From a virus, in the IMG/VR virus record IMGVR_UViG_3300033149_001335, positions 1 to 41,147 of that record: a stretch of 41,147 bases of DNA. One strand, given 5' to 3'. Under the pieces are notes generated by a model. That model was given only the letters and a program-made list of their open reading frames with translations, was not told the origin of the DNA and did no database searches. Positions 965 through 30,952 of this stretch are shown piece by piece. Within the stretch, counting starts at the first letter, position 1, and every line of letters starts with the position of its first letter. The translations under genes were made by a program, and so were the position numbers.

Positions 965-1525
965 ATGCCAATAATGACTAAAATAAAGAAACATGGATTA
1001 GAGAATGAAATATACAATCTTATAAATACTGGGATGAGTTTACAAGAAACAGCAGATACTATAAATAGAACTCATGAGGATATTAATATTAATAAAATGA
1101 CATTATCTAGGTTTATGAAGAGTACAGAAGTAAAGGAGATACAAAAAGAACTTAATGAGGGTAAAGACGTAGAAACCCAATTAAGAGATGAACTTAGGAA
1201 TAAGATGACTGAATGGGAGGACGAAACCCATGAAATATATACTATTATGAAAAGAGCTTTAAAGAAGATGGTGAAAGATGATGACAATTGGAAAATCATT
1301 AAAGCTGCAAAAGATACTCTTAATGCAATAGACCAATCGAGACGTAATCTAATTACTAAAGTTGAAGAAGGATTCAAGAGGTTTGGATATACAGATGAAG
1401 CCAAGCAAGTTAATTATGTCCAGATTAACAATCTATTAATAGCAGCGAGTGATGAGTTATGTCCGAAATGTAGAAAGAAGATAGTTGACTTAATAACAAC
1501 TATGGAGGAAACAGATGCCAGGTGA
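965..1525 (+). CDS. Putative terminase small subunit
   Basis: This 186-residue protein probably recognises viral DNA for packaging. The assignment rests on position, as first gene of the packaging block ahead of TerL, and on architecture. A likely helix-turn-helix spans about residues 12-52 (LINTGMSLQETADTIN followed by a second recognition-type helix), and a charged helical oligomerisation region covers about 55-140. A C-x2-C pair (C166, C169) near the C-terminus might bind a metal, which is not typical of well-studied small terminases. The start is supported by AGGAGA at 951-956, nine nucleotides or so before ATG. The end overlaps the next gene by 11 nt, so translation is probably coupled. 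A general DNA-binding regulator is the alternative. Confidence 0.55.
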   Translation: MPIMTKIKKHGLENEIYNLINTGMSLQETADTINRTHEDININKMTLSRFMKSTEVKEIQKELNEGKDVETQLRDELRNKMTEWEDETHEIYTIMKRALKKMVKDDDNWKIIKAAKDTLNAIDQSRRNLITKVEEGFKRFGYTDEAKQVNYVQINNLLIAASDELCPKCRKKIVDLITTMEETDAR

Positions 1526-2021: not shown

Positions 2022-3506
2022 ATGACGTTATCTACTTTATTAAATAATATAGATTCAACACAACTAGATGTACTAAAATACTCTAATAATCCTGTCCTAT
2101 TCATGACAGATATATTAAATCTAGATTGTGAACAATTTCATCAGGAATGGCTAAAGACATTTGAGGATAATAAATTTACAGTATTATTAGCTCCTCGTGG
2201 TCATGGTAAGACAACTGCGATTGGTTCTTACATAACTTGGCGTATATGTAATAATAGAAGAATAAGAGTTCTTATAATTACTATTAACCAAGCGAAAGCT
2301 AATAATATGATGACTTTCGTTCAAGAGAGTCTAACTAAGAATCAAAAACTAATTAATTTATTTGGTGTGTTTAAGGGAAATACTGAATGGTCAAGGAACT
2401 CAATAAGAGTTAAGCAGTCAGTATCTGGTATTCCTATAATAGAACCAACATTAGAAGTTATGGGTAGAGGTTCTAGATTAGTATCATCTCATTATGATTT
2501 GATAGTTCTTGATGATGTAATTGATGATGATAGTTCTAGAACGGAAGCTCGTAGAAGAGAGACAGAGGATTGGTATGATGGACCTCTAATCGGAACATTT
2601 AGAGGAAATACCAAATTAATTAATATTGGAACGAGATGGGGAGAAGATGATTTTCATCAATTCCTAATGAATAAGGCTGGATTTGTAACTTTAAAATATA
2701 AAGCTCTTCTAAATAGAAAGAAATATGATGAAGGTTTAGAAGAAGCTAAAGTTCTATGGCCAGGAAGAAGACCATGGAATGCTAAGATGGCAGTAGAGAA
2801 TGGTTTATCAGAAGATGTTATAAATCTAAAATTCATACGTAAACATCAAGGTGAAAGATTCTTCCAAATGCAATATCAGAATAATATAATTGCAAGTGGA
2901 ATATCTAAATTTAAAGAAGAATGGATAGAATCTGCAATTAGACGACATTATTCAATGAAAGGTATCTATCCATTAGATATAAAGAAGTATATGGGTGTAG
3001 ATATTGGTGGAGAAGATGCAAAGTCTGATTATTGTTCCATAACAGTAGTTGGAATAGATAAGAATGGAATTATATATATATTAGACAATGTCAAAACTCA
3101 CGCTTCACTTAGTAGACAAGTTGATTTAATTAAATCAATGGATGAACGACATCATGTATCTAAAATGGGTATTGATTCATCTGCTCAACAGAAATTAATC
3201 ACATCTGAATGGATTAAGAATAATCCCTCACTTCCAATTGTACCTATTAAATTATCCAGAGCTAATGATAGAGAGACAAGAACTGATAGATTATCTATAA
3301 TATTTGAGACTAATAGAATATGTATTAATCCAATATATGAAGATTTAATAAATGAGTTAAGGGTGTATCCTAGAGGAAAGAATGATGATTGTATTGATTC
3401 ATTATCATTTGCATTAGAAGTATCTAGAGATGGTAGCTTTATTGATTGGGATAAAGCATTAGATAATATTGTAACAAGACGTAAATATGAGATAAGAACT
3501 TTATAA
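2022..3506 (+). CDS. terL: Terminase large subunit (ATPase-nuclease)
   Basis: TerL powers DNA translocation into the procapsid and cuts the concatemer. The 494-residue length is typical. The N-terminal ATPase has a Walker A-like LLAPRGHGKTT (residues 55-65, K63) and a Walker B LIVLDDV (160-166, D164/D165). The C-terminal RNase H-like nuclease is seen in YMGVDIGGED (D327), KMGIDSS (D384) and DDCIDSLSFAL (D456/D459), which supply the expected metal-binding acids. The gene begins without a clear Shine-Dalgarno (TTATTCATAATATG), just after a hairpin. It is followed 12 nt later by the Alba gene and then the portal gene, matching standard packaging order apart from the inserted Alba. Confidence 0.95.
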   Translation: MTLSTLLNNIDSTQLDVLKYSNNPVLFMTDILNLDCEQFHQEWLKTFEDNKFTVLLAPRGHGKTTAIGSYITWRICNNRRIRVLIITINQAKANNMMTFVQESLTKNQKLINLFGVFKGNTEWSRNSIRVKQSVSGIPIIEPTLEVMGRGSRLVSSHYDLIVLDDVIDDDSSRTEARRRETEDWYDGPLIGTFRGNTKLINIGTRWGEDDFHQFLMNKAGFVTLKYKALLNRKKYDEGLEEAKVLWPGRRPWNAKMAVENGLSEDVINLKFIRKHQGERFFQMQYQNNIIASGISKFKEEWIESAIRRHYSMKGIYPLDIKKYMGVDIGGEDAKSDYCSITVVGIDKNGIIYILDNVKTHASLSRQVDLIKSMDERHHVSKMGIDSSAQQKLITSEWIKNNPSLPIVPIKLSRANDRETRTDRLSIIFETNRICINPIYEDLINELRVYPRGKNDDCIDSLSFALEVSRDGSFIDWDKALDNIVTRRKYEIRTL

Positions 3507-3518
3507 TGGAGTATAAAG

Positions 3519-3872
3519 ATGAGTGATGAAAATATAGAAAAGATATTCATAGGTCCAAAAGATATTCCACAATATCTTTCTGCTTGTTTCTATGGATTTA
3601 CTAATAATGACACAATACAAGTTGTAGGAAGAGGTAACCATATCAAGAGATGTGCTGATATTGGAGCTATAATGATTAGAGAACATATGGATGTTCCTGA
3701 TAAGTTTCCATCTTTACAACAAGTATTAGATTGTTTAGATTCTAATGATATTGATAAAGCCAAAGAACTTATCACACAATTAATGAAATGTGAAATAAGT
3801 ATTGGAAGTGAGTGGTTTGTTGATAGATTTGTATCTACTATGGAAATTACTCTACGTGGTGGTAAGAAATGA
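3519..3872 (+). CDS. Alba-family nucleic-acid-binding protein
   Basis: Alba proteins are archaeal chromatin/RNA-binding dimers of about 90 residues. This 117-residue protein keeps the main Alba landmarks. IFIGPKDIPQYLSA (residues 9-22, K14) corresponds to the family's V-x-I/V-G-K-K-P-x-x-x-Y-V segment. VVGRGNHIKRCADIG (35-49) matches the RGRAIxxAVD motif. ISIGSEWFVDRFVSTMEITLR (93-113) matches the final hairpin and VSxIEIxL strand. A helical insertion at about 57-90 explains the extra length. GGAG at 3508-3511 precedes the ATG, and its TGA overlaps the portal ATG (ATGA), so the gene is embedded in the packaging operon. It might coat viral DNA, remove host chromatin before packaging, or bind mRNA. 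The family call rests on motif matching by eye. Confidence 0.8.
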   Translation: MSDENIEKIFIGPKDIPQYLSACFYGFTNNDTIQVVGRGNHIKRCADIGAIMIREHMDVPDKFPSLQQVLDCLDSNDIDKAKELITQLMKCEISIGSEWFVDRFVSTMEITLRGGKK

Positions 3873-6301
3873 ATTTAGGTCTTGGTCGTCCAAATTATAG
3901 TGTAGATACTTATGATACTCCTGGATTTATTAAATATCTAAAAGAAGATGGTAAAGCTAAAACTCTTGTAAGAACCAAGGGATCTGCTAAATATTCTAAG
4001 AAAGCTGGAGAACGTACATTATCGGAATTAAAGAATTATTGGATGTATTATTCTAAGGAGGGTACAGTATTTGCTGCTCTCAATTCTACTGCTTTTAACA
4101 CAATACTTGTAGGTTCAAGTATCCAATCTGTAGATGAAGATGCTAAACAATTAATAGAGGATATTTGTTTTAATGTGGATTTAGAAGGTGCTTTACTAGA
4201 GGCTACTCTTCATAGTCTTGTATTTGGTGATGCATATATAGAGAAGAGGAGAGTAGGTGGTGGAGATATTGTTAAATTACACCCAGTAGATCCTCAGACT
4301 ATGATTATAAATTATAATGAATTTGGCGATGTTGAGTCATACCAACAGGAGATTGGTGGTAGATTAATAGAACCAGTTATCAAACCAGAAGATATTATTC
4401 ATATTAGGTTTCTTCCAATTCCAGGTTCGCCATACGGTGTCTCAATGATAGAACCTAATGTAGATATTATAAACCGTAAACTATCTATAGAAGAAGCCAT
4501 ATATAATGCTATGATACGTCATGGTACTGGTAAATGGGTTATTTACGTAGGTAATGAAAAGGATGGTCAAACTCCTCCTGATGACGTAATGGATAAGATA
4601 GCAGAGAAGTTTGAGAATATAAATGAGATTAATGAAGTGGTACTTCCATGGTTTATTAAATTAGAAGCAGTTGATGAAAAGGGTATAGAGGGAGTAGATA
4701 CATACTACGATTATTTCCAAACTCAATTAGTAGTTGGATTAATGTGTCCAGAAGAAGCATTGGGTTTGGGCAGGGGAATTTTACATCCAGATACTGAAAT
4801 ATTTACTAAGTCTAAAGGATTTGTACCAATTGAGTATGTAGAAGAGGGAGATGAAATTCTAACTTATAATTCAAAGTCTAATACTCTTGAATACCAACCG
4901 AATAGAAAGACATGGGAGTTTGATTTAGATGAAGAATTATTTAATATTAAAGCTCAAACATTCAATTTATTATGCACGCAAGATCATAGAGTTTGTTATA
5001 GAGGACAACATAAAGAAGAATTTGATATTTGTCAAGCTCAAGAATTACCTACTAGATTTGAAATGATAGTGGGTGGAATGAATTGGAATGGGATTGATGT
5101 TCCAATTGAGAAAATACCGTCTATACCAATATATTATGGAAATAGATTTGTAAAACATAAGTTACGTAAATGGGAACCAGAGCAAGAAATACGAATGGAT
5201 GATTGGCTAGATTTTCTTGGATGGTTTATATCTGAAGGTTATACTTCAATTAATAAAGATGGATATACTGTTGGTATTAGACAATTTAATAAAGACAATT
5301 TAGCTAAGATTTGGGAATGTGTTAATAAATTACCATTTAAGGCTAATCTTTCTGAAGATAGAGTAACAATACATAATAAACAATTAGCATTATATCTAGA
5401 ACCACTTGGGAAATCACATGAAAAATATATTCCATCCCATATAAAAGAATTATCTCCAAGACAATTATCAATTCTTTACGAATCATTAATGTTGGGGGAT
5501 GGATGTGAGAATAATTATTTTACGTCCTCTAAACAATTGGCTGATGACTTACAGGAAATTATTTTAAAGATGGGTTATGGTTCTACTATTTATATTCGAG
5601 ATAGAATTGGAGATGATGTAACAATTCATGGAGAAACAAATGGTAAAGTTAATTATTTACAATATACAATAACAAAGAATGAAAAGAATCTAACACCAGA
5701 AATATGTATTAAAGATACAAAAGGTCATAAAGATATGCATGAGTTAATACCATATAAAGGTAAAGCATATTGTGTAACTGTTGATAATGGTTTAATTCTC
5801 ACTCGTTTAGATGGGAAGTGTGTAATAACTGGTAATTCGACTGAAGGAACAGCAAGAGTTAAAGCTATAATGTATGAGAGGATGATAAAGGCTTATCAAC
5901 AGCGTATATCGCAGATTATAAGAACTGAATTATTCAATGAAATTCTAATTAAATATGGATTTGTAAACAAAGAATCTGAAGTAAAAGTTAAAGGGGATAA
6001 ATCACCAGTTAAAGTAGAGTTAATATTTAATTCTGTCACAGAAGAAGATGAAGCGTTGAGAGCAAAATGGTTAGGTAATCTTCTTAGAGGATTCCCAGAT
6101 GGTAATATGCCATTTACAAGAAATGAGATTAGAGCATTCTTTAATTTACCCCAAAGAGAAGATATGGAGGATGTTCCTGTTTCTGGTGAAGATGAGGAAG
6201 ATAAAAAGCCAGAAGAATCTAAAGAAGAGAAACCCAAAGAAGAAAAGCCAAAATCTAAGCCTAAAGAAGAATCAGTTGAGGAAGAAGAGGAGGAAGAGTA
6301 A
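3869..6301 (+). CDS. Portal protein precursor containing an intein
   Basis: The portal is the dodecameric ring at the capsid vertex through which DNA passes. The 810-residue product reduces to a normal-sized portal of about 457 residues once the internal 353-residue intein (304-656) is removed. Portal-like features include FGDAYIEKRR (about 119-128), KLHPVDPQTM (136-145), DIIHIRFLPIPGSPYG (175-190), and the junction GLGRG/STEGTARV, which rejoins a conserved-looking segment. The C-terminus (about 772-810) is a low-complexity Lys/Glu/Pro tail ending in seven Glu. The gene overlaps Alba by 4 nt, and its acidic tail codons (AGGAGGAAGAG) supply the ribosome binding site for the next gene. It is probably transcribed with terL. 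Confidence 0.9.
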   Translation: MNLGLGRPNYSVDTYDTPGFIKYLKEDGKAKTLVRTKGSAKYSKKAGERTLSELKNYWMYYSKEGTVFAALNSTAFNTILVGSSIQSVDEDAKQLIEDICFNVDLEGALLEATLHSLVFGDAYIEKRRVGGGDIVKLHPVDPQTMIINYNEFGDVESYQQEIGGRLIEPVIKPEDIIHIRFLPIPGSPYGVSMIEPNVDIINRKLSIEEAIYNAMIRHGTGKWVIYVGNEKDGQTPPDDVMDKIAEKFENINEINEVVLPWFIKLEAVDEKGIEGVDTYYDYFQTQLVVGLMCPEEALGLGRGILHPDTEIFTKSKGFVPIEYVEEGDEILTYNSKSNTLEYQPNRKTWEFDLDEELFNIKAQTFNLLCTQDHRVCYRGQHKEEFDICQAQELPTRFEMIVGGMNWNGIDVPIEKIPSIPIYYGNRFVKHKLRKWEPEQEIRMDDWLDFLGWFISEGYTSINKDGYTVGIRQFNKDNLAKIWECVNKLPFKANLSEDRVTIHNKQLALYLEPLGKSHEKYIPSHIKELSPRQLSILYESLMLGDGCENNYFTSSKQLADDLQEIILKMGYGSTIYIRDRIGDDVTIHGETNGKVNYLQYTITKNEKNLTPEICIKDTKGHKDMHELIPYKGKAYCVTVDNGLILTRLDGKCVITGNSTEGTARVKAIMYERMIKAYQQRISQIIRTELFNEILIKYGFVNKESEVKVKGDKSPVKVELIFNSVTEEDEALRAKWLGNLLRGFPDGNMPFTRNEIRAFFNLPQREDMEDVPVSGEDEEDKKPEESKEEKPKEEKPKSKPKEESVEEEEEEE
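4778..5836 (+). mobile_element. Intein with LAGLIDADG homing endonuclease, class-3-like
   Basis: Residues 304-656 of the portal form a full-length intein. Block A is ILHPDTEIFTKSKGF (304-318). Block B contains T370 and H373 (CTQDHRV). The two endonuclease motifs are DFLGWFISEG (448-457) and ESLMLGDG (538-545), of the dodecapeptide LAGLIDADG type. Block F is KAYCVTVDNG (632-641) and block G is CVITGN, followed by Ser+1. Position 1, normally Cys, Ser or Ala, is Ile, and the penultimate His is Gly655. Block F position 4 is Cys635 and the block G residue before Gly is Thr654, as in class 3 inteins, which lack the N-terminal nucleophile. The expected block B Trp appears to be Val. Splicing would also work on paper if residue 1 were Gly303. 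Activity is not proven. Confidence 0.85.
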
Positions 6302-6302
6302 T

Positions 6303-6791
6303 ATGAATAAGTGTAATGCAACTAGGAAATTTGAGTATGATTCACAGATATCTCACAAATCTCAGGGTATGAGAATTTTCAAAGGAGCTATTATGCTTAC
6401 ACCAGGAACTTGGGCTGATATGGTTACTAATGCAAATGTATTGTATAAATCTGATATCATAGATAAATATAGTAACAATTGGATATCTAATTACATAGAT
6501 TTGCAACACTCACATCATCCAAGAGATTTAGTTGGTACAGTACATAATCAATATTCTAAGAATGGTATCCTTAAGGGAGATTTATGGATAAATACTAACT
6601 TAACAGCTGGTAAAGATATAGTGCAATTAATTGACTCTAATATAGTTAATCAACTATCCATAGAGATGTTGACTAATGATAAATGGGATGGGAATTCACG
6701 AGTAAGGTCTGTTGAGTCTATTAAATTCTTAGGAGTTGCGATTTTGGGTGGACCATCTATACCTGCCTGCAAGGATACTAAAATTAAATGA
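6303..6791 (+). CDS. Prohead-protease-like protein (short paralog)
   Basis: This 162-residue protein resembles caudoviral prohead serine proteases, which cleave scaffold and capsid proteins during maturation. Matching landmarks are YIDLQHSHHPRDLVGTV (64-80, likely catalytic H69), NGILKGDLWIN (87-97) and DIVQLIDSNIVNQLSIEM (105-122, likely nucleophile S119). RSVESIKFLGVAIL follows, where proteases usually carry an acidic residue that is not obvious here. It aligns along its length with residues about 50-190 of the larger protease at 8139. The start at 6303 was chosen because the frame's earlier ATG (6099) lies deep inside the portal gene and a strong AGGAGG-type site sits just before 6303. It could be an active second protease or a degenerate paralog. 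Confidence 0.65.
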   Translation: MNKCNATRKFEYDSQISHKSQGMRIFKGAIMLTPGTWADMVTNANVLYKSDIIDKYSNNWISNYIDLQHSHHPRDLVGTVHNQYSKNGILKGDLWINTNLTAGKDIVQLIDSNIVNQLSIEMLTNDKWDGNSRVRSVESIKFLGVAILGGPSIPACKDTKIK

Positions 6792-7105
6792 ACAATGATT
6801 TCGACCATATTCTTGTTGATGGATGTGATTTATGTAAATACTTCAAGAATCCAGAATCTATAACTGTAAAATTGTATTATCCAAATGACATATCTAAGAT
6901 TAAAGATTCTGATTTTATTATTATAGAATCAGATACTGGTCCGATGATTATTATAAATGACCACATAACTGAGATATCTAAAGAACTATGGGGTAAGATA
7001 CTCTACATATCTAAAAAGCTATATGGTGATATTATTAGATTAAAGATAGATAAATGTAAAGACTATATGCATTGGAACGCACGTGTAATGTCTACAGAAT
7101 ATTAG
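6788..7105 (+). CDS. Small C-x-x-C protein, conserved-looking, unknown function
   Basis: This 105-residue protein begins with a C-D-L-C pair (about residues 13-16), continues with a strand-rich core (SDFIIIESDTGPMIIINDH), and ends with DKCKDYMHWNARV. From memory this layout resembles a small family in archaea and their viruses with an N-terminal CxxC, a central P-M-V/I segment and a terminal H-x-H/N-A-R motif. I cannot name it securely. Some members would have a second CxxC where this one has SDTG. The start overlaps the upstream stop (ATGA) with AAGGA at 6770-6774, and the end overlaps the next frame. It probably belongs to the head-maturation operon; a metal-binding or regulatory role is possible. 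Confidence 0.5.
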   Translation: MNNDFDHILVDGCDLCKYFKNPESITVKLYYPNDISKIKDSDFIIIESDTGPMIIINDHITEISKELWGKILYISKKLYGDIIRLKIDKCKDYMHWNARVMSTEY

Positions 7106-7863: not shown

Positions 7864-8142
7864 ATGCCTAATAGTGATATAGATAAGTTGATTGAAAAGT
7901 TTAATAAGATGAATGGTGGAAGTAATAACTATTCGCAGAGAGATTTACTTAAGTATCTAATAACTAGAATAGATGAATTAGATGGTAAATTGGAGAATAC
8001 TAATGGCAAGTTAGATAATCATATTACACATCTATCACAGCGTATTACAGCAATAGAGACATGTATTTCTAATTTCAAGTGGATATTTGGAGCTGTTGCA
8101 GTATGTATATTTGGATTATTTATTGAAGGATTGGTGTTATGA
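7864..8142 (+). CDS. Coiled-coil protein with C-terminal membrane anchor (XhlA-like)
   Basis: This 92-residue protein has a polar N-terminus, a heptad-type helix (about residues 26-66, ITRIDELDGKLENTNGKLDN and onward) and a single C-terminal hydrophobic helix (about 70-92, WIFGAVAVCIFGLFIEGLVL). This matches the layout of haemolysin XhlA-type and related small phage membrane proteins, some of which act with holins. Its place in the head operon rather than a lysis cassette is odd for that job. The stop overlaps the next ATG (ATGATGA). No good Shine-Dalgarno precedes its ATG. The membrane topology is clear; the role is a guess. Confidence 0.55.
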   Translation: MPNSDIDKLIEKFNKMNGGSNNYSQRDLLKYLITRIDELDGKLENTNGKLDNHITHLSQRITAIETCISNFKWIFGAVAVCIFGLFIEGLVL

Positions 8143-9431
8143 TGAAGATTAATGAGGTGATTATAAGGGGGGACATAGATTTAGATAGATTATCTACATT
8201 GCCTTTAAATAATGATAAAGTATCTATTATTACCAAACAGTCGGTACCAATACAACTTGGTGGTGGATTTGATATAATTAATAAGGCTAATGATGGAGAA
8301 CGCATTATTGCTGGGTACGCAAGTGTTATTGAGCTTGACCAAGAGAATCATTTAATACCTAAAGAGACATTAGAAGCTGGTATAAAACCTCTATTGGAAG
8401 ATTCAGATTATTCTAATTTGATGCTTCTGCATCAGAATATCCAAGTAGGAAAGATATTAAAAGGGTATAAGAAACTCAAAACCCATGTAGATGATATGGG
8501 GTTATTCATAGTAGCAGAGATACGTAAAGGTCTAAAGACAGCAGATGAGGTATGGAAAGCTATTCTAGATGGTGCATTACAGGGATTTTCGATTGCTGCG
8601 GAGATAGTAGGTGCACACAATGAATGTGATAAGAATGAATGTTGGAAAGTAATTGATAGTATTAATATGTTTGAAATAAGTGTGTGTGACAATCCAGTAA
8701 ATTCTAAATCAGGATTTGTTGTAGTGTCCAAAGGAGAGAGTCCTTGTGATAATGTATTTACAGATGTAATAACTAAAGGTAATGAAATGTCCGAAGAGGA
8801 AAAAGTTAAGGAAGAAGTTACAAAAGATAAAGTAACTAAATCAGAAGAGACACAAGAGTCTAAATCTGAAGATGAGACTAAAGTAGTTAAGAATGATGAT
8901 GAAACTCTAAAATCAATAGTTATGGAATTATCACAACAGGTATCTGCTCTTACTGGTATAATTCAACAAATGAAAGCGAAACCAGAAGATGAAGAAGTGA
9001 TGGATGAAGAAGACGATGAGGAGGATGAGGAAAAATCTTTACCTAAAAAGGAAGAGAAAGCTTTACCTAAAGAAGAAGAGAAACCTCCAGTAGAAGAACC
9101 ACCCAAAGAGGAAGAGAAACCAGTTGAGAAGTCAGGTGAATCTTCATATCCTGCTAAGAAAGATTTTGATGATTTAAAGAAGTCTATAGATAAAATCATT
9201 GAGAATGTTTCAACTTCTAAAGAGATAATCAAATTAGAGAATGTGCTTAAAGCCAAAGATGGTGAAATATCAATTCTAAATGATAGAGTAAAAGTATTGG
9301 AGAAAGCAGAGATAGTTCCTAAAACAGTTGTAGAGGAAAAGAAAGATGTAGTTAATAAGAATGTTAAGTCATCTAAGTTTGTCAAAGATAAGTTAGGTAC
9401 TGGAGTCTTTTTTAAAGATCCAGACTTTTAA
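8139..9431 (+). CDS. Prohead protease fused to scaffold-like domain
   Basis: The N-terminal half (about residues 40-198) is a prohead serine protease of the XkdF-like kind. It shows IIAGYASV (56-63), MLLHQNIQVGKILKGY with likely catalytic H98, GALQGFSIAAEIVG with nucleophile S151, and INMFEISVCDNPVN with E179. The C-terminal half (about 210-430) is charged and low in complexity. It has an acidic run (EVMDEEDDEEDEE), Lys/Glu/Pro repeats and a coiled coil (about 345-395), as expected for a scaffold around which capsid protein assembles and which the protease then digests. At 430 residues the fusion fits known protease-scaffold proteins. It starts by ATGA overlap with the upstream gene and precedes the decoration and capsid genes. 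Confidence 0.85.
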   Translation: MMKINEVIIRGDIDLDRLSTLPLNNDKVSIITKQSVPIQLGGGFDIINKANDGERIIAGYASVIELDQENHLIPKETLEAGIKPLLEDSDYSNLMLLHQNIQVGKILKGYKKLKTHVDDMGLFIVAEIRKGLKTADEVWKAILDGALQGFSIAAEIVGAHNECDKNECWKVIDSINMFEISVCDNPVNSKSGFVVVSKGESPCDNVFTDVITKGNEMSEEEKVKEEVTKDKVTKSEETQESKSEDETKVVKNDDETLKSIVMELSQQVSALTGIIQQMKAKPEDEEVMDEEDDEEDEEKSLPKKEEKALPKEEEKPPVEEPPKEEEKPVEKSGESSYPAKKDFDDLKKSIDKIIENVSTSKEIIKLENVLKAKDGEISILNDRVKVLEKAEIVPKTVVEEKKDVVNKNVKSSKFVKDKLGTGVFFKDPDF

Positions 9432-11471: not shown

Positions 11472-11849
11472 TTAAATTGAGAGGTTGGAATTATGGCAGG
11501 AGCCAAGATCCCAGTATTAGAAATAGAACAATTCTGGTTGAAAAGTGGTGGTAGAGGTATATATGCTTATCATGATGGTACAGCTTTGGATGCGTCAACA
11601 GGTATATTTACTGGTGTGTCATCACAACTTGCTGGAGCTAGTAAAACATTCTTACCAGCAGCTAGTACGAGTGCATGGTTAAAAATTGTGTATGATGATG
11701 CTGGAACATCAACAACTGGATATATACCAATATGGCCAAGAATTGATTTAACCACATAGATATACTTTAGATTAATAATATATGGTTTAACATTTCTTTT
11801 GTATGTTTTATGTTTAGGTTAAATTGAGAGGTTGGAATTATGGCAGGAG
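11472..11849 (+). repeat. 31-bp direct repeat spanning two gene starts
   Basis: Identical 31-bp sequences at 11472-11502 and 11819-11849 cover the TTAAATT leader, the GAGAGGTTGGAA ribosome-site region, the ATG and the first codons (MAG) of two paralogous genes. They show that the whole unit, leader included, was tandemly duplicated, or that the leader is under strong conservation. Confidence 0.75.
11493..11759 (+). CDS. Small structural-type protein, first of a tandem pair
   Basis: This 88-residue protein begins MAGAKIPVLEIEQFWLKSGG and ends DDAGTSTTGYIPIWPRIDLTT. It reads as a compact beta protein with no signal peptide or catalytic motif, and it is about three-quarters identical to the next gene. 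Position just after the capsid gene, with its own ribosome site and a T-rich leader, suggests an abundant virion component such as a minor capsid, decoration or head-fibre protein. No family is recognised. Confidence 0.6.
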   Translation: MAGAKIPVLEIEQFWLKSGGRGIYAYHDGTALDASTGIFTGVSSQLAGASKTFLPAASTSAWLKIVYDDAGTSTTGYIPIWPRIDLTT

Positions 11850-12103
11850 TAAAAATTCCAGTATTAGAAGTCGAACAATTATGGTTAAAGAGTGGTGGCA
11901 GGGGTATATATGCTTACCATGATGGTACTGTATTAGATGCATCAACTAGTATATTTACTGGAGTGTCATCAAATACTGGTAAAGATAGGACATTCTTACC
12001 AGCATATAGTACGAGTGCATGGTTAAAAGTTACATATGATGATGCTGGGACTTCAACGACAGGGTACATACCAATATGGCCAAGAATTGATTTGTCAGAA
12101 TAG
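11840..12103 (+). CDS. Small structural-type protein, second of a tandem pair
   Basis: This 87-residue paralog of the preceding gene keeps the N-terminal KIPVLEVEQLWLKSGGRGIY and the C-terminal WPRID end, and differs mainly in the middle (SSNTGKDRTFLPAYSTS). The conserved leader and ends suggest both copies are used. They might form a hetero-oligomer, or be alternative versions. No recognised domain. Confidence 0.6.
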   Translation: MAGVKIPVLEVEQLWLKSGGRGIYAYHDGTVLDASTSIFTGVSSNTGKDRTFLPAYSTSAWLKVTYDDAGTSTTGYIPIWPRIDLSE

Positions 12104-14400: not shown

Positions 14401-14451
14401 ATGTTTTTTTGTAAACAAATGAGTACCAATACCATCTCAGGGAAGTGGTAA
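14401..14451 (+). CDS. 16-residue mini-ORF leading the tail tube gene
   Basis: The ATG at 14401 encodes MFFCKQMSTNTISGKW and stops at TAA (14449-14451), three bases before the GTG proposed for the next gene. It has a canonical ribosome site. It could be a leader peptide that couples translation of an abundant protein. Alternatively the internal M-S-T-N-T-I-S-G resembles the N-terminus of the next paralog (MTATSPKTY), which would fit a frameshift joining it to the tube frame. Confidence 0.35.
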   Translation: MFFCKQMSTNTISGKW

Positions 14452-14453
14452 TC

Positions 14454-14891
14454 GTGGGTGTAGTTACAGGTAGTGATGCTACTATTGTAATCATGTCAGG
14501 AGCTACGGCAAAAGGTCATTCAGTTTGGGGGATATCAGATTTCTCTTTAACTTTTGACAGAGGTACAGTTGAACAGGCACTTGTTGGTGAAACTGGTAAT
14601 TGGTTTGGAGTTGGTTCACTATCAGTTGAAGGTTCATATACATGCTGTAAGTTTGGAGCTTCAGGCAATTGTGATTCATTAGTTGGTATCGTAGAAGGAC
14701 AATATATAGTCGTGTCAGGCACTACAGCAACTGGAGATATGTCTTGGAGATTTGTGTCATCACAAATTTCAGGATATGATATTTCTATTGGAGATGCAGA
14801 TACTATATCTGAAGCCTCTATAGATTTTGTAGTTATGGATCCTTATATGGTTACTATTAATGCAACCAATGGATTTATTACGGACGTATAG
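14454..14891 (+). CDS. Major tail tube protein, first paralog
   Basis: This protein of about 145 residues is a beta-rich tail tube candidate. DRGTVEQALVGETGNW, GSLSVEGSYTCCKFG and ISIGDADTISEASIDFVVMDP are shared almost position by position with the next gene, showing tandem paralogy. Tail tube subunits polymerise around the tape measure protein, and this placement before the tail chaperones is the standard one. The start is uncertain. GTG 14454 has AGGGA at 14439-14443 at good spacing, while GTG 14445 in the same frame is too close. It lacks an ATG and begins inside or just after a mini-ORF. Confidence 0.65.
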   Translation: MGVVTGSDATIVIMSGATAKGHSVWGISDFSLTFDRGTVEQALVGETGNWFGVGSLSVEGSYTCCKFGASGNCDSLVGIVEGQYIVVSGTTATGDMSWRFVSSQISGYDISIGDADTISEASIDFVVMDPYMVTINATNGFITDV

Positions 14892-14903
14892 GGAGGTTAA
14901 ATT

Positions 14904-15365
14904 ATGACAGCAACATCACCAAAAACTTATAGAGGAGAGAATGCAGCGATTCAATTTAAAGGACATACGGCTGCCAGAAAACATTCCGCTATGGGAGCAG
15001 GAGATTTTACTCTTACTCTAGATAGAGGAACTGTAGAACAATCACTATTAGGTGAAGCTGGTAATTACCATGCTGCAGGTTCATTATCTATAGAAGGTTC
15101 ATTGACAGCTTGTAAGTTAGACCCAACAGCAGCAGTTGATATATTAGTTCAATGTATCACAGGAGCTACTTGTTGGATATCGGGTTCAGTTGGACCAAAT
15201 TCGTTGAATTTCTTCTTTATATCGAGTCTAATAACTGGATTTGATATATCTCTAGGAGATGCAGATTCAGTAACTGAAGCTTCAATTGATTTCGTAGTTA
15301 TGGACCCACAGAATATAAATCTAAAACAACTTGATACTGGTGGAACTCAAATCAAAGATACATAG
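14904..15365 (+). CDS. Major tail tube protein, second paralog
   Basis: This 153-residue protein starts MTATSPKTYRGENAAIQF, with GGGAGGTT well placed upstream. The core DRGTVEQSLLGEAGNY, GSLSIEGSLTACKL and ISLGDADSVTEASIDFVVMDP matches its neighbour. Differences lie mainly in the middle and in a C-terminal extension (LKQLDTGGTQIKDT). Either copy may be the main tube subunit, with the other forming a special ring, or both may co-assemble. No Ig-like add-on domain is present. The tail tube assignment is by position and paralog pattern, not by a diagnostic motif. Confidence 0.65.
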   Translation: MTATSPKTYRGENAAIQFKGHTAARKHSAMGAGDFTLTLDRGTVEQSLLGEAGNYHAAGSLSIEGSLTACKLDPTAAVDILVQCITGATCWISGSVGPNSLNFFFISSLITGFDISLGDADSVTEASIDFVVMDPQNINLKQLDTGGTQIKDT

Positions 15366-22564: not shown

Positions 22565-25500
22565 ATGAAATTATTTAATGATATTAAAGATACAATATTC
22601 AATTTCTTACAATCTATATTATCTATAGAATCTAATCAGGTGGTCAAAACTGTATTATATCTAATTCCTATTATATCTATAATAATCATCTGTCTATTTC
22701 TCAATGTTAATATATTTATAATCATATTCCTTATTATTATCTATTCAGTTATAGTTTGGACATCTCTACATTGGAAACGAGTTGTTAAGTGGATTAAATC
22801 TAATAAGAAGAAATCAATGGTTGTTGGTGTGGCGGTATCTTCGTTATTAGGTGGATGTTTGGTACTGTTTGATTTACAAGAACTTCCTACAACTAACTTT
22901 ATTACTTTATATGAACGTGGTTCGACATACAACATATATTATAACTCAGATACAGAACAATATTACTCCCATCTCTTTTCAGGAGATGTAAACTATCAGA
23001 ATGAAACAGGAGTTTACAATCCTATCAACACAACAATACAGGTATTACCTCAAGACCATCCAGCACGTCAATATGGCTATGCTGCATATGCAAATAGGGG
23101 ATTATATGCAGTATATTTCAAACAGAACGCCCAAGATGATTATCCCATTTGTTTTGCTTATAATCGTGGTGATAGTAATGTTACCCATGCATTAAGAAGT
23201 AAACTTATCGGTGTTGGTTATTATGACCCTTCATCTGGACATGACTATACTATTCTTCAAACTGTATTAAATAGTCAGGGTACGATGGATGGAAACACAG
23301 GAACTTACAGCAATATCCTTTCGGGTGTGGATGCCGAATGGGTATATGGAAAGTATGGATTAAAAGAAGACCTTATTATGTCCAATACTACAAAAACATT
23401 ATTACAGAATCATCCTCCATCCGATTATGGATATAACAATCAGAACTCTTATGTTGTGATAGTTACTAAGATGGATTACAAAAACGTATATTCATACAAT
23501 GGTAGCACAAACATCTCAAGTAATTTCACATTCCATAACGGGATTAAATTCAAGGATGCTTTAGGCAAGGTTCTTTTCGCTATGCCTACTGGTTTTGTTT
23601 ATGAACAGAATAATAAGAGTTCTGTAAACGATTTGATTTATCGCCTTGTGCGACATAATGGGGAATATTATTTATTGTCTGGTATTAAGGCAACGACTCT
23701 TAACAATATGGAATTTCCTGTTGTATTTGACCCTGCTGCAGATATAACTGCTGAGAGTGATGATGGTATAATTATTACGGGTACTGATGCTAATTGGGAT
23801 AATATTAGGGATGCCACAACTGGTACTGCAGATTCAAGTGTTGCAAGTACTCTTAGTGCAGTAAAAGCAATTTTATCCAAAAGTCAATATCAAATCTCTC
23901 GTACGTTTTTCGAGTTTGATACATCAAATCTCCCTGATGGTGCCACTATTAATACCCTGCATCTTTTTATTTATGGCACAGCAACAATATATGGTTCTGA
24001 TGATACAATTGTAATAGCAAGTTCCCAAGGAGAAGCATTGGACAATGATGATTTTAACAATATAGATTTTAATACACCATATAGTAGTGAAGTGACTTCT
24101 TGGACTGCAAGTAATTGGAATGATATTACTCTAAATCAGGATGGTAAAGATGCTGTAAGTCTTGTTGGAAAAACTTATATGGCTTTGGTGAACCATGATT
24201 ATGATTATTTAGATAGTGACCCTCTTGTGAATAATGGTGTTGGGTGTTATTTTTCTGAGGAGACTGGTAAAGAACCTTATTTGAATATCACATATTCAAT
24301 ACCAAATACTGCTCCAACTTTTAGTGGAGAAATACCATCTGCCGATTCTGGTGATATTGGTATATCGCCTACTATGAATATCACAATCTGGGATGATGAT
24401 GATGAAGATACTACAATAGATTGGTATTATAATGCGACTATTGGTTCTGGTTCATGGACACATATTGACCATTATACAGGACATCCTGCGGATACCTCAA
24501 ATACCACAACTGCGACATCTGGAATTAATCAATATAACCATTGGTATAATATAAAAGTTACCGCAGACGATGGACAGACCGGTGGAAATTCTACAAAAGT
24601 ATGGAAATTTAAGACTATAGATTACACTCCAGACACTCCTGCAAGTTTTGTATCAACAGCATATTTGTATAAACAAATTAATTTAACATGGACAGATGAC
24701 ACAGAAGCGGATAGCACACGTGTAGAATGGAATCCAGATGCTGATGGAACTTGGAATGTTGATGACCACTCATTCTTGTATAATGGTTCTGCTGAACAGT
24801 ATGAGCACACTGGTTTACATCCAAACAAGGATTATTTTTACAAGGTATGGTCATGGAACTCTACACAGGGAGTTTGGAGTTCAGGTTCAATAAGTAGTGA
24901 AACAATAGGGAAAGCTCCCATATTGTACACATTAACAACTCCTTTTTCTACATTAGAGTTTAACTTGCAAAATAACACTAATAACATAGAACCAACTGGT
25001 CAAAATGTAGCTGTCTATGCAATTAATATTACAAATAATAACAGTAAATACATGGATTTGGATATTAGGTTAAATGAAACAACAATTGATAATGTTTCTC
25101 TCTACTATAATATTGAGTATGATAATAGCTCATCTAACTGGGCAATATATTCGGCTACAACTAATATTACTTGCATGGATGAAAGTGGTTCTGTTTATTG
25201 GAGATATTGTATAGGGGATACAAAAACAAAGCCAGGTATTACATATTATAATGGTAGTATATATACCCAATTAACAACTAGCCCTTGCAATTTTACCAGA
25301 TTAAACGCATCAACAGAAACGATGTCTGCTGCGGAAAGGACAATGGCAGCAGTAGATTTAGACCAAATTTTGTATTCTACGCCATTACACTCAAATGGAT
25401 ATACTTATTGTGCTACTCCTGGGGCAGTAGAAGGTCACTGTGTAATATCATGTCATTACTCTAACAATTTAACACTTATATGGGAAAGTGATACAAAAGA

Positions 25501-28500
25501 TTTAAACGGCATAGATTATTACACAAGAATATATTCACAGCTTGCAATGGCAGATGGTATTCTATTATGGATGGATGACAACTGGAATGTTGTTGCATTG
25601 GGAAATCTAACACAGTATAATAGTAGTTTTCATACTGATTGGGACGAATATGGGAGGACATATTCCAATCATATGGTAGCCGAATCCAATTCAAGTGTTA
25701 ATTTATCAAAAGATGTTTTATGGACTGCCAATGCAACTGGGACATTTGATGAATATGGTGGTGTATCTGTCCATGATGGTATTGTGTATGTGTCACCAAA
25801 GGATGCATATTTGGAAAGTTTTCCTGGTCATTCAGGTATGTCTGCAATTTATTTGAATAATGGTACAATAAAATGGCAGGATACAGTTGACATTAATTCT
25901 GACAGCACACCGACTTATTGGAATGGATATTTGTATACACAGAGTTTAAGTGATGGGAATAATAATTCAATATACTGTCTTGATGCATCTGATGGTTCAT
26001 TGGTGTGGTCACATAACATAAGTCACACAGATGGAGGGGTTGGCTGTATTGGTTCAGTTTCAAATGATGGAATAATAGTAACATCATGTGATGGATATTT
26101 ATACGCATTTTATGCGATGAATGGTACTGAACTATGGAATGTCAATCTCTATGGTGAAGAGTCATATTCTGCTGGGATAGCTCCATTGACCATAAACAAC
26201 AGCGTGTATATAATTAATGCTGATACGGCAACTTCTTCATCCATTTTTTATTCGTATAATCTGCATAATGGAACTAAAAACTGGGAAGTAGTTGATGGGG
26301 GATCACATTGGGATAGTAACCCATGTGCTGTAAATTATGGTGGTAATAAGGAAAAACTATATAATTATTCATTACAACTCGATGATGCTCTAGCACCTGG
26401 AGAATCTTGCACACTATATTTATGGGCTGATTTAGATGGGAACATGACTTCTGATTTTTCGAGGTACATAAATATTACATTATCTGCAAACGAAGAGGGC
26501 TATGAAACAGAATATGTTGAGGTTGAAGCGTGGTTCAATCTATCAAATACAGGTGATTGGTCAAACACGGCTCCAACAATCACAAATCCTGGGCCTGTCA
26601 ACGGTGCAACAGGGCAAAGCCTGACTCCAACCATCAACGCTACGATTTGGGATGTTGACGGGAACACTACAACAATCGACTGGTATTATTCATTGGACAA
26701 CAGCAGTTGGACTTTCCTTGCCCATGTTACAAACCATCCGGCGAACACATCCAACAGCACTACCGCAACTTTTGCAGATTCTTATAATACTAAATATTAT
26801 TGGAATCTGACTGCGAATGATGGACATGACAACACGACTTCGACCGTGTGGAATTTCACAACCTTAGATGCTACGCCTGATGTCCCTACTGGGTTTTCTG
26901 CTACAAACATCAGTTCATCTCAAATAAACCTTGGATGGACTAAGGGAACGAATCATGTAGACACTACCTATATTGAGCGTAATGCTACCGCAGTAACGGT
27001 TTGGGCACGTGGTGCAGGCACAATGATTTACAACGATACAGGTACAGCCAAAAGCGATACTGGACTTGATGCGGACACCCATTATTACTACCAAGCCTGG
27101 AGTTATAATGCAACACAGAACGTCTACAGCATAACAAATGATAGTGTTGATAATATGACACAAATCACTTCTTCTTTAAGTGTTTCTTTGCCGTTTCCAA
27201 CCAATAACAGCCAAACAGTTCTTACGGGTATTGGTAATCTTTCCGTACTTATCAAAAGTACAGGTAGCTGGAATATTTCCCTATATGATAATTCTACTCG
27301 TACATTGCAGGCGTATGCATCTGGTGCAAGCAGTTCGAATGTTGTGCAGTATTGTGATGTTACATCTGCTTTGTATTATGCATTTGACAAAAGTTATACC
27401 TGGTATGTAAATGCTACCGATGGGTCTACTTGGGACAATAATACTTATTATTTTACTACTTTTAACGGGAGTGGATTTGTTTATTTGGATAACACATCGG
27501 TAAATACAGATACTAATATGTCAACATTGTGTGGTCTTGATAATACAGAACCATATGTTTATGCATTGGATAGTGTTGGCAAGAAACTTGTTGCATATTC
27601 TTATAAAAATGGTACATTAGAAAAAATCACTGAGACAACATTACCAGATTCACCAGATGAGGTTTATAAAATGGGTGTTGGTAATTATATTCATATTACA
27701 ATAAAAGTTCCAGCGGCTACTGACATTATTAGAAATTTAGCATATGATTTCGATGGAAATTCATTTACACTTTTACATAATAGATTATCAGGACTTGCTG
27801 ATGCTATTACTATTAATGATGTTGATGTAATTGAAAATGGTACAGGAGATTGGCTTTTTTACTCTATTACATATCCTGGTGTTAGTGATTTTGTCAGAAT
27901 ACTTGAGTTTAACGGTACAGAATACAATTCTGGTGAGGCAATAGATGAAATAGCAACATTTTATTCAAGAATATCAGTTATGGAAACTGCTACTACCTAT
28001 CTCTGTGCAATTGATTCATCTAATGATATTCAACTATTTACATTCAATGAATCTGGTACACATGAATTTGTTTATAAAAGTACGTATGCTGGTACATATC
28101 TTGACATCACTAATGATAATCTTTATTTTTATGGAGTATCGGATACATCTTTAGATATTTGTTCAGTTAATGATACATATAATTTAGTTCCTGAATATTC
28201 ATATATTGACAGTGGTGTGAGTGTAACAACAATTGATGATAAATCATTTATCGGTTCATCAGATGGTAATTTACTTTCATATATTTTTGAAGGTGGAGAG
28301 TTTACAGAGCAACAAAGTGTTTCGATGGTAAATAATACTAAATCTGTTTATGAAATGGGCGGTTTTGGTTCTTATCTTGTTTCTGCTTGTGAAGAAGGTG
28401 GTATTCATCTTTATGGTTATGAACTCGTGCGTGTTGCTCCACCTGTAATTGATTTGATTTATGCTGGTGACCCATCTAAATACAGTGTAACCCGTGATGG

Positions 28501-30952
28501 AACCATTCGATATGTGAATCAGTCATATAATAATCAGACTTTTTGTAATGTCACTGCGAATATTACTGTTCCTGATTATCGTACTATGGGACGTTATTTC
28601 AAAACAACTGACGATGATATATTTATCCCGTCTGGCAATCTTACTGATGGCGATACGGATTACGTCCATGAACAGAACCACAGCCTTATAGCAACCCAAT
28701 GGGAATGTACATATACAGGTGAGTACAGTCAGATCAGTGGGTATCTTATAGGATCTGGAATGTGTCCTCCGTGGGTGGGTTATGCTATCTATACGGATAA
28801 CGCAGGTAGCCCAGGGACACTTCTTGGTTTTACTGAAAGGGATTGGCCTGGGAGCGATACATTCACTGAAGACCAGCGTGATAATGTTGGTGTTTTATAC
28901 TACCCACCATGTACAAGAGTATGGTTCACTGGCGACATAGCATATGATGGCTCTGGGATTTCCACTAACTCAATTACTCTTACAGATGAAACTGATTACT
29001 GGCTTGTGATTGCTACTAATGACAGTTATGGTTACACAGGATATGGATATACTTATAGTAATGATATTTACTGGTTACTTGGAAACAGTCTTGGCGATAC
29101 TTGTTATGTCAAAACTGCACCATATAACATCAGTTCAGATATGAACTTCAGTAATGTCACCAGTCCAACTTGGAGTAATCATGCAACAGCCCATTATGCC
29201 TGTATTTATGCAATTGCAAACAGTACCTATAATACTGTTCCGACTGTAGATATTGCATCTGCAACACTTCATTGGTATAACAATAGTGTTAATACTTGGA
29301 ATATGAGCATGACAGAAATAGGAGATACTGGGAACTGGACTAAAAATGTTTCAGGTCTCACTTTTGGTAATTGGTACACGTTTGATATTACGGCATACGA
29401 TGAACTTGCTGATGATGTTACATATGAACATTATCGTTATTTGATTGAGGGGACTACAGAATATATAGAATTTCAATGTAATGTTCCTTATGAAGATGAG
29501 GGGGGACACCAGGGCTATAATTCAACATCTACATTATATCGGAATGATTCTATATTGTACATTGAAAACCGTTCATATGGTACTGATACTTGGTATGGGG
29601 ATGATGAACATATGGAAGATGTATTGCCCCATGAACAGGGTGTAGATGGTACTGCTGACGACACAGGTGGTTGGGTGACTGGACTTCCTGGCGATACATT
29701 TCAAGCTCGTCATTGCCTGAAGTTTGCAGGTGCATGGTGGGATGATAATATTACTATTGAAAATACAGTAAACCTTACGAATGTTTATGTGCATTTATGG
29801 GCTGGTGGCGGTGTTAACTGGGACGATATGCGTATTCATTATGGACGTATGACCACATTGTATGATTTCGGTTGGCTTGATTTGACAGAAAACGTAGGCG
29901 AATCCTGGAACTATCTTGAACTTGGTACAAACGCTTCAACTCGCACAACTCACGTTATCACTAACTCTCCTGCGACATTTTCTGACCCATCTGGTACTGA
30001 TAATACTGCTCGGCTTGTCTGTGAATATATTAATATATCTCAAGGAATAGACAAATCTACATTTGGCAGTAGCAGCATTTATAATTTCTTCTTAGGATAT
30101 GACAATAATGGCAGTCTTGCCTGGTCAAAAGAGAGTGCTATACTTCTTAACAACCGCAGTTTCCTGAGTTTCCTTATTTTCAATATCCCACAAGACATTT
30201 ATGATGGAACGAATACGTCAACAGACTCGGATGGTGACGGGTTATCTGACTATCATGAGATGAATGTCTCTTTTACTCATCCATTTTTAGTTGATACTGA
30301 TGGGGATGGAGTTAATGATAACATAGATGCGTATCCAAATGATTATACTAAGTCAGAGTATGATACCATAATCCGCACAAACGGGGTTGATTATTTCGTG
30401 TGGATAGGAGAGAATGTTTCGGCATACTCTATTAATTCTACTATGTCTAGTGATGGATGTAGTTTTGATGAAGCAAATGAATATATAGCAATTTGGAACT
30501 CATCTGGTTCTTGGGACTCTAATTGGTATGTAGATGATTTATGGTATCAATATCATGGTGCAAATGCATCTGGCAATAATTTTACTATCCACACATTCGA
30601 TATCCTAAAGGTCGTTCTCACAGATTCTGGTGATGTTACTATTAATATGATTCGTAATTCTAATATAGATTATACTACAGCTAGAAATGTATCACTTACT
30701 AATACTACTAATGTTGGTGCTAACTATGTTGGCTGGACTGATGATGCTTCAACTACTCTAAATGATATTGCTGATACAATGATAACAACTCTATTAGATA
30801 ATGGAGAGTATCTTTGTCTATGGAATGAGACTAACTATGCTTGGGATTTCTTTATAGTAGGATTCTATGAACCTGCTATTGCCGTTCTTGAAGACGATGT
30901 TATTATGATTAAAGTAGAAGATCAAGAGTATATTGAGATAGGTGGTAAGTAA
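22565..30952 (+). CDS. Giant membrane-anchored surface protein, propeller/Ig/FN3 mosaic
   Basis: The 2795-residue protein begins with three hydrophobic segments (about residues 29-47, 49-68, 84-102). The third follows KKK and ends LLGGC, so a lipoprotein-type signal is also possible. Next comes an RHS/teneurin-like beta region ending EFPVVFDP (about 390). An FxFDTSNLP beta domain follows (about 400-580), then Ig-like plus FN3 modules (580-780). A PQQ-type propeller spans about 1050-1245, with repeats such as SIYCLDASDGSLVW. A second Ig/FN3 pair occupies about 1335-1530 and a second propeller-like region about 1640-1955. TSP3-like calcium repeats DSDGDGLSD and DTDGDGVND lie at about 2553-2595, before two C-terminal beta domains. 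N-x-S/T sequons are extremely frequent, as in archaeal surface glycoproteins. GGGAG precedes the ATG. It may be a host-attachment fibre or a protein displayed on infected cells. Confidence 0.7.
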   Translation: MKLFNDIKDTIFNFLQSILSIESNQVVKTVLYLIPIISIIIICLFLNVNIFIIIFLIIIYSVIVWTSLHWKRVVKWIKSNKKKSMVVGVAVSSLLGGCLVLFDLQELPTTNFITLYERGSTYNIYYNSDTEQYYSHLFSGDVNYQNETGVYNPINTTIQVLPQDHPARQYGYAAYANRGLYAVYFKQNAQDDYPICFAYNRGDSNVTHALRSKLIGVGYYDPSSGHDYTILQTVLNSQGTMDGNTGTYSNILSGVDAEWVYGKYGLKEDLIMSNTTKTLLQNHPPSDYGYNNQNSYVVIVTKMDYKNVYSYNGSTNISSNFTFHNGIKFKDALGKVLFAMPTGFVYEQNNKSSVNDLIYRLVRHNGEYYLLSGIKATTLNNMEFPVVFDPAADITAESDDGIIITGTDANWDNIRDATTGTADSSVASTLSAVKAILSKSQYQISRTFFEFDTSNLPDGATINTLHLFIYGTATIYGSDDTIVIASSQGEALDNDDFNNIDFNTPYSSEVTSWTASNWNDITLNQDGKDAVSLVGKTYMALVNHDYDYLDSDPLVNNGVGCYFSEETGKEPYLNITYSIPNTAPTFSGEIPSADSGDIGISPTMNITIWDDDDEDTTIDWYYNATIGSGSWTHIDHYTGHPADTSNTTTATSGINQYNHWYNIKVTADDGQTGGNSTKVWKFKTIDYTPDTPASFVSTAYLYKQINLTWTDDTEADSTRVEWNPDADGTWNVDDHSFLYNGSAEQYEHTGLHPNKDYFYKVWSWNSTQGVWSSGSISSETIGKAPILYTLTTPFSTLEFNLQNNTNNIEPTGQNVAVYAINITNNNSKYMDLDIRLNETTIDNVSLYYNIEYDNSSSNWAIYSATTNITCMDESGSVYWRYCIGDTKTKPGITYYNGSIYTQLTTSPCNFTRLNASTETMSAAERTMAAVDLDQILYSTPLHSNGYTYCATPGAVEGHCVISCHYSNNLTLIWESDTKDLNGIDYYTRIYSQLAMADGILLWMDDNWNVVALGNLTQYNSSFHTDWDEYGRTYSNHMVAESNSSVNLSKDVLWTANATGTFDEYGGVSVHDGIVYVSPKDAYLESFPGHSGMSAIYLNNGTIKWQDTVDINSDSTPTYWNGYLYTQSLSDGNNNSIYCLDASDGSLVWSHNISHTDGGVGCIGSVSNDGIIVTSCDGYLYAFYAMNGTELWNVNLYGEESYSAGIAPLTINNSVYIINADTATSSSIFYSYNLHNGTKNWEVVDGGSHWDSNPCAVNYGGNKEKLYNYSLQLDDALAPGESCTLYLWADLDGNMTSDFSRYINITLSANEEGYETEYVEVEAWFNLSNTGDWSNTAPTITNPGPVNGATGQSLTPTINATIWDVDGNTTTIDWYYSLDNSSWTFLAHVTNHPANTSNSTTATFADSYNTKYYWNLTANDGHDNTTSTVWNFTTLDATPDVPTGFSATNISSSQINLGWTKGTNHVDTTYIERNATAVTVWARGAGTMIYNDTGTAKSDTGLDADTHYYYQAWSYNATQNVYSITNDSVDNMTQITSSLSVSLPFPTNNSQTVLTGIGNLSVLIKSTGSWNISLYDNSTRTLQAYASGASSSNVVQYCDVTSALYYAFDKSYTWYVNATDGSTWDNNTYYFTTFNGSGFVYLDNTSVNTDTNMSTLCGLDNTEPYVYALDSVGKKLVAYSYKNGTLEKITETTLPDSPDEVYKMGVGNYIHITIKVPAATDIIRNLAYDFDGNSFTLLHNRLSGLADAITINDVDVIENGTGDWLFYSITYPGVSDFVRILEFNGTEYNSGEAIDEIATFYSRISVMETATTYLCAIDSSNDIQLFTFNESGTHEFVYKSTYAGTYLDITNDNLYFYGVSDTSLDICSVNDTYNLVPEYSYIDSGVSVTTIDDKSFIGSSDGNLLSYIFEGGEFTEQQSVSMVNNTKSVYEMGGFGSYLVSACEEGGIHLYGYELVRVAPPVIDLIYAGDPSKYSVTRDGTIRYVNQSYNNQTFCNVTANITVPDYRTMGRYFKTTDDDIFIPSGNLTDGDTDYVHEQNHSLIATQWECTYTGEYSQISGYLIGSGMCPPWVGYAIYTDNAGSPGTLLGFTERDWPGSDTFTEDQRDNVGVLYYPPCTRVWFTGDIAYDGSGISTNSITLTDETDYWLVIATNDSYGYTGYGYTYSNDIYWLLGNSLGDTCYVKTAPYNISSDMNFSNVTSPTWSNHATAHYACIYAIANSTYNTVPTVDIASATLHWYNNSVNTWNMSMTEIGDTGNWTKNVSGLTFGNWYTFDITAYDELADDVTYEHYRYLIEGTTEYIEFQCNVPYEDEGGHQGYNSTSTLYRNDSILYIENRSYGTDTWYGDDEHMEDVLPHEQGVDGTADDTGGWVTGLPGDTFQARHCLKFAGAWWDDNITIENTVNLTNVYVHLWAGGGVNWDDMRIHYGRMTTLYDFGWLDLTENVGESWNYLELGTNASTRTTHVITNSPATFSDPSGTDNTARLVCEYINISQGIDKSTFGSSSIYNFFLGYDNNGSLAWSKESAILLNNRSFLSFLIFNIPQDIYDGTNTSTDSDGDGLSDYHEMNVSFTHPFLVDTDGDGVNDNIDAYPNDYTKSEYDTIIRTNGVDYFVWIGENVSAYSINSTMSSDGCSFDEANEYIAIWNSSGSWDSNWYVDDLWYQYHGANASGNNFTIHTFDILKVVLTDSGDVTINMIRNSNIDYTTARNVSLTNTTNVGANYVGWTDDASTTLNDIADTMITTLLDNGEYLCLWNETNYAWDFFIVGFYEPAIAVLEDDVIMIKVEDQEYIEIGGK

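Follow-up and report, generated by a model that had tools for sequence, protein, structure and literature searches.

Alba proteins and the viral locus

Alba proteins form an archaeal family that binds chromatin and RNA. In host Alba, residues K16, R44 and R83 are together needed for the binding of DNA and dsRNA (PMC3325275, PMC7498313), RNA chaperone activity, the preference for ssRNA and growth depend critically on K17, and M20, L24, L27 and F60 are needed for oligomerisation (PMC7498313). The acidic homolog Mth10b (pI 4.56) retains the fold and binds neither DNA nor RNA (PMC3097224).

The searched literature (main texts of openly accessible papers) contained no virus-encoded Alba located in a packaging operon, and the preliminary description of the locus, which knew of no such system, agrees with this. 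The main texts of reports on ANME-1, on Bathyarchaeia and on head-tailed proviruses of archaea mention no Alba. To our knowledge, and within the searched literature, the recruitment of a nucleic acid-binding Alba dimer to the terminase-portal junction or to a packaging-associated RNA is not known, either among Alba proteins or among tailed viruses. The Alba family itself is known; new, with respect to the searched literature, is a virus-encoded, uniformly remodelled Alba that is fixed in the packaging operon. It was identified in a window of 41,147 nucleotides, i.e. the whole stretch of DNA analyzed (positions 1 to 41,147 of IMG/VR record IMGVR_UViG_3300033149_001335).

Identity and predicted structure of the viral Alba

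The viral Alba gene (positions 3519..3872, + strand; 117 aa) starts 12 bases past the end of the gene for the large terminase subunit (TerL) and is preceded by a Shine-Dalgarno-like GGAG (3508..3511, + strand), placed 7 bases 5′ of its ATG. Such a motif is present ahead of 31 of the 41 viral Alba genes. The stop codon overlaps the start of the portal gene in an ATGA sequence (3869..3872, + strand). The ORF, its coordinates and this overlap had been given exactly in the preliminary description, which was also right on the tight coupling with the packaging genes.

Taken alone, the window ORF gave no Pfam match; in a phmmer search of the PDB its top two matches were Alba proteins, both weak (E 0.012 and 0.013). 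As a single query against viral and genome collections this protein returned no match, and a tblastn search of phage records was likewise negative. The viral Albas score under the NCBIfam AlbA cut-offs, and in PHROGs they produced only two weak single-member matches, to unnamed families. The assignment was obtained through the relatives. The Albas of contigs L001–L003 are 46–52% identical to the window ORF (52% for L003); those of L002 and L003 (31.7 bits for L003) lie above the Pfam Alba cut-off, and the highest score, 39 bits, was that of L004. PF01918 was matched by 40 of the 41 aligned homologs (E ≤ 0.01; best 2e-15), and profile-profile comparison of viral with host Albas gave a probability of 98.9% (E 2.4e-17).

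The AlphaFold2 model of the window protein (pLDDT 92.6, pTM 0.82) contains the Alba (IF3-C-like) fold, β1-α1-β2-α2-β3-β4, and superimposes on Mja10b with a Z score of 13.7 (1.6 Å over 79/80 residues). The elements through which a homodimer would form (α2, β3 and β4) are present, and D51 is kept in 40/41 sequences. All leading PDB structure matches were Alba or Rpp20/25, followed, in the expected order, by SpoVS and IF3-C. ORF 3519–3872 thus encodes an Alba-family protein, as had been proposed from its sequence landmarks, and the comparison of a predicted structure with Alba, suggested at that time as a check, bears this out. No Alba was present among the BFVD viral structures matching the model. 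The best BFVD match, SpoVS (E 5e-3), was dropped as an identity, since the Alba matches are far stronger.

Organization of the packaging and structural module

A probable small terminase gene (TerS; 965..1525, + strand), predicted to encode an N-terminal HTH followed by long helices, was recognized by the HMM census, homolog profiles and modelling. The census placed a TerS-like gene 5′ of TerL in almost every relative, and 2 of the 36 TerS-like homologs matched phrog_426 (terminase small subunit). The model of this protein is all-helical (pLDDT 85), with non-significant matches to G20c TerS and a fold search at noise level. The viral Alba is therefore additional to the TerS-like gene. Its own candidacy as a small terminase was rejected: it lies downstream of TerL, lacks the HTH and the oligomerisation helices, and the separate gene at 965–1525 fits that role. 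Between the TerS-like gene and TerL (1515–1948) two small membrane proteins (67 and 60 aa) are predicted; both recur in L001 and L002, and the first also in L004.

TerL (2022..3506, + strand) was identified by matches to phrog_38 (E 1e-73) and Terminase_6C (2e-8). The portal gene (3869..6301, + strand; Phage_portal 1e-11, phrog_12 4e-17) is split by an intein that includes a homing-endonuclease domain (LAGLIDADG_3, weak Hint_2). TerL or portal ORFs are oversized in L013, L017, L036, L038, L062 and L075, which suggests that packaging genes are a recurrent target of inteins in this clade. The portal gene is followed by a prohead-protease-like gene (6099..6791, + strand; true start probably further in), whose similarity to Peptidase_S78 is just under the cut-off in the window and over it in L004, and whose order is conserved. 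A second, separate head-maturation-protease-like gene occurs in the same structural module (8139–9431).

Further features of the window were also recorded. A small protein encoded 3′ of the protease gene (6788–7105; no Pfam match) is conserved in L001 and L004; the L004 homolog is HIT-like, with a histidine motif that has seemingly been lost in the window. Small genes are duplicated in tandem at 11493–12103 (after the major capsid gene) and at 14445–15365 (tail-tube region). A 2795-aa protein (22565–30952), which has hydrophobic segments at its N terminus and weakly resembles BamB (PQQ-like propeller) over one stretch, is possibly a surface or receptor-interaction protein.

Distribution and inheritance of the Alba gene

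The initial set of relatives, obtained with TerL as the query, comprised 8 viral contigs, 6 of them close. Each of the six carries a small ORF directly 3′ of TerL, and 5′ of the portal gene where the contig extends that far, and these ORFs match Pfam Alba. Profile scans of IMG/VR then yielded 36 loci with an Alba query (made without TerL) and 47 loci with a TerL query; gene-order counts were taken from an HMM census over all loci from both scans.

The order TerL-Alba-portal was found in 49 of the 51 clade contigs that show both flanking genes; the 36 loci of the Alba query lie without exception in the TerL-portal slot. The preliminary description had proposed a search for Alba beside TerL and portal in other viral contigs, and this arrangement is indeed recurrent. 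In every contig holding TerL, Alba and portal genes (49/49, the window counted) these follow in that order, spaced by ≤100 bases, and the Alba and portal genes overlap in 24/49. Among 50 contigs there are 43 distinct Alba sequences, with constant slot and orientation, and each virus record that has an Alba has one copy.

In L067 and L075 TerL abuts the portal gene and Alba is absent. Since both contigs are nested within the clade, close to L038, in the trees of TerL and of portal (rooting unsure), the gene has likely been lost there; as these two viruses do without it, Alba is dispensable in some relatives. No Alba was present in the more distant L076 and L077, nor in the database record MW202426 (21.5% identity between its TerL and that of the window). 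A scan with canonical host Albas, whose patterns are finite, detected one further viral contig only, L098 (Alba at 4968–5243). The Alba search patterns in general are degenerate yet finite, so further viral Albas may exist.

By the estimated rates the Alba gene is under strong purifying selection (dN 0.03–0.29, dS mostly above 1; TerL similar). Its distances correlate with those of TerL at r 0.62, compared with 0.77 for portal and 0.73 for TerS, the somewhat lower value being unsurprising for so short a protein. A single-copy Alba-fold protein is thus fixed in the packaging module of this clade (TerS-like, TerL, Alba, portal, protease) and is inherited with it. There appears to have been one ancestral capture of Alba, followed by remodelling.

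Remodelling of the putative nucleic acid-binding surface

The 41 viral Albas were aligned with five host Albas (Sso10b and four others, the latter taken from search outputs). The β3-β4 span is exactly 12 residues long in 41/41 viral sequences, compared with 16–17 in hosts. K16 is lost in 38/41 (kept in 3), R44 in 36/41 (kept in 5), and the R83 hairpin tip is absent in all 41. The dimer-dimer patch M20/L24/L27/F60 has become mostly polar: L24 is replaced by S/T in 39/41, F60 by Y/H in 39/41 and M20 by S, P or other residues, so that only L27 (F/L) stays hydrophobic. K17, Y22, R42 and G43 are invariant (41/41), as is an arginine that sits at the base of the hairpin (R103 in the window). K47, present in 40/41, was gained relative to hosts; K/R48 occurs in 39/41, and position 18 is D or E in 36/41 viral sequences but Pro in hosts. 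To judge from this alignment, the remodelling is uniform across the viral family. The features of chromatin-type DNA binding (K16/R44/R83, long β3-β4 minor-groove arms, hydrophobic patch) are thus lost, either throughout or in most members. With regard to RNA chaperones of the Sis10b type, a basic residue 17 together with Y22 and R42 is present in 41/41, but R44, R83 and the oligomerisation patch are not.

The window Alba is acidic (pI 5.09, net charge −4, with −3 contributed by an insertion), whereas most relatives are basic (family median pI 8.95). Since acidic Mth10b binds neither DNA nor RNA, the window copy may, by analogy, be weakened and might not bind nucleic acid at all. The insertion, already noted in the preliminary description, is located between α2 and β3 (~30 residues, about residues 58–90; 3690..3788, + strand) according to the alignment and the model, and its helices at residues 66–74 and 78–88 are real features of the model. 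It is, however, lineage-specific, being carried only by the window and four relatives (L001, L002, L009 and L042), and absent in L003 and most others. In the portal tree the carriers group as a single clade (100/99), which is recovered neither with TerL nor with Alba, and a single origin is for this reason considered only likely. In this lineage, the window included, the extra helices may add protein contacts.

The virus clade and its hosts

The window belongs to an uncultured clade of head-tailed viruses with genome records of up to 155 kb. No replication gene was recognized in the window, and no tRNA. Family B polymerase genes occur in four long relatives. The largest record (G019, also L031; 154999 bases), a member of the same clade, encodes a family B polymerase, a separate 3′-5′ exonuclease, an ERCC4-type nuclease, a ribonucleotide reductase and a Cas4-like protein. 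Its ends match over ~655 bases, but not identically, and it was therefore not called complete. The same record contains (as L079–L086) a Band 7 gene, as well as an extended series of genes of the sugar-metabolism, methyltransferase and radical-SAM-like types.

A TerL profile scan of GTDB genomes detected no relative and therefore no host by way of a provirus, and searches of these virus records for MCM and TFIIB found neither, so that no host link was obtained from them. The gene make-up and Alba itself suggest that the hosts are probably archaeal.

Possible functions of the viral Alba

We tentatively favor a role of the viral Alba as a nucleic-acid adaptor in packaging or the late stage of infection, acting as a nucleic acid-binding dimer that forms no fibres. 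The protein would fold as a homodimer whose compact basic patch binds nucleic acid, single-stranded or RNA more probably than duplex DNA. It is predicted to build no Alba fibres: K16, R44 and R83 are mostly lost and the patch is mostly polar, while K17, Y22, R42 and K47 are kept or gained, which points to a smaller basic surface. Presumably sharing a translational unit with TerL and portal, it would be made in motor- or portal-level amounts, which would suit a motor/portal accessory or a regulator of late mRNA and not genome-wide coating. Candidate ligands include late mRNA, a packaging-associated RNA and the DNA end at the motor. This reading is weakened by the acidity of the window copy and by the absence of the gene from L067 and L075; positional coupling shows co-expression and not a packaging function, and the RNA preference is read, by analogy, from residues studied in Sulfolobus proteins. 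The more specific proposal that Alba is a standing component of the viral packaging apparatus, placed as a nucleic acid-binding dimer at the terminase-portal junction or on packaging-associated RNA, is doubtful.

Less probable is a head-completion or portal-associated structural protein, with the Alba dimer serving as a scaffold at the portal or motor and nucleic-acid binding being secondary. The TerL-portal slot is equivalent to that of lambda gpW, the portal adjacency is fixed (with the overlap in 24/49 contigs), and the acidic members and the helical insertion would suit protein contacts; acidic Mth10b, too, has the Alba fold but binds no nucleic acid (PMC3097224). A pure scaffold would nevertheless not need the basic residues conserved on the nucleic-acid face (K17 and R42 in 41/41, K47 in 40/41). 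The invariance of K17, Y22 and R42 and the near-invariance of K47 argue for a ligand of the protein's own, and hence also against an antagonist of host Alba, which would form defective dimers with the host protein and so weaken the attachment of that protein to DNA or RNA at a late stage. The retained dimer fold (D51 in 40/41) and the loss of DNA contacts and of the polymerising patch do amount to a dominant-negative make-up. Such a takeover function would, however, be expected early and not in the packaging operon, and it supposes a host with an Alba of its own; we regard this alternative as unlikely.

A viral chromatin, in which viral DNA would be coated or condensed by the protein, either ahead of packaging or following it, was the first of the roles proposed in the preliminary description, the others being a clearing of host chromatin and a control of late mRNA, the latter a candidate role here as well. 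It is consistent with membership of the Alba family, the basic character of most relatives (median pI 8.95) and the position beside the motor gene. The claim is weakened by the loss of the long hairpin (arms cut in 41/41) and of most DNA-contact residues (K16/R44/R83), the mostly polar patch and the acidity of the window copy. In addition, the portal overlap and coupling suggest modest expression, and terminase motors tend to strip DNA-bound proteins. Judged by the aligned residues, chromatin-type condensation is the role least consistent with the changes, and it seems improbable. A captured host gene without a role, or mis-binned host DNA, might be argued from the two clade members that lack Alba, but is far more remote: 43 distinct sequences in 50 contigs share slot and orientation, purifying selection is strong, and the members have a viral-only signature in common. 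For the clade as a whole, synteny and dN/dS refute it.

The viral Alba, for which we favor the adaptor role, shows an archaeal chromatin- and RNA-binding family being kept as a conserved packaging-module gene in a widespread virus clade, and is a candidate for a new factor in the packaging or late expression of archaeal head-tailed viruses. Its uniform remodelling is a natural experiment separating the Alba residues used for DNA compaction from those serving a different ligand, and the TerL-Alba-portal order is a marker by which the clade can be recognized.

Comparison with known systems

In gene content, the large relatives of the window resemble the head-tailed Kunpengvirus of Bathyarchaeia (PMC10848311) in carrying a separate 3′-5′ exonuclease, a family B polymerase and a Cas4-like gene; they differ in that no MCM is present in the window-clade records, and the main text of the Kunpengvirus paper names no Alba. 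The L098 Alba is likewise encoded on a virus record (77 kb), but it has a host-like long hairpin and lies amid small genes, outside any packaging operon.

Among characterized proteins, Mth10b of Methanothermobacter (PMC3097224) shares with the window copy its acidity and the lack of K16 and R44 equivalents. The window copy differs in keeping K17, R42, K47, R48 and the hairpin-base arginine and in its shorter hairpin, and most of its relatives are basic. As in the RNA chaperone Sis10b of Sulfolobus islandicus (PMC7498313), K17, Y22 and R42 are kept in the viral Albas, whereas R44, R83 and the M20/L24/F60 patch, which Sis10b needs, are not. With the Alba/Sac10b family in general (PF01918; Sso10b, Mja10b and Afu10b) the viral proteins share the fold (Z 11–14), K17, Y22, RG42-43, K/R48, D51 and the VST strand. 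They are distinguished from it by the shorter arm (12 residues versus 16–17), the loss of most K16/R44/R83 residues, the mostly polar patch, D/E18 in place of Pro and the gain of K47, and by being encoded by viruses, within the packaging operon.
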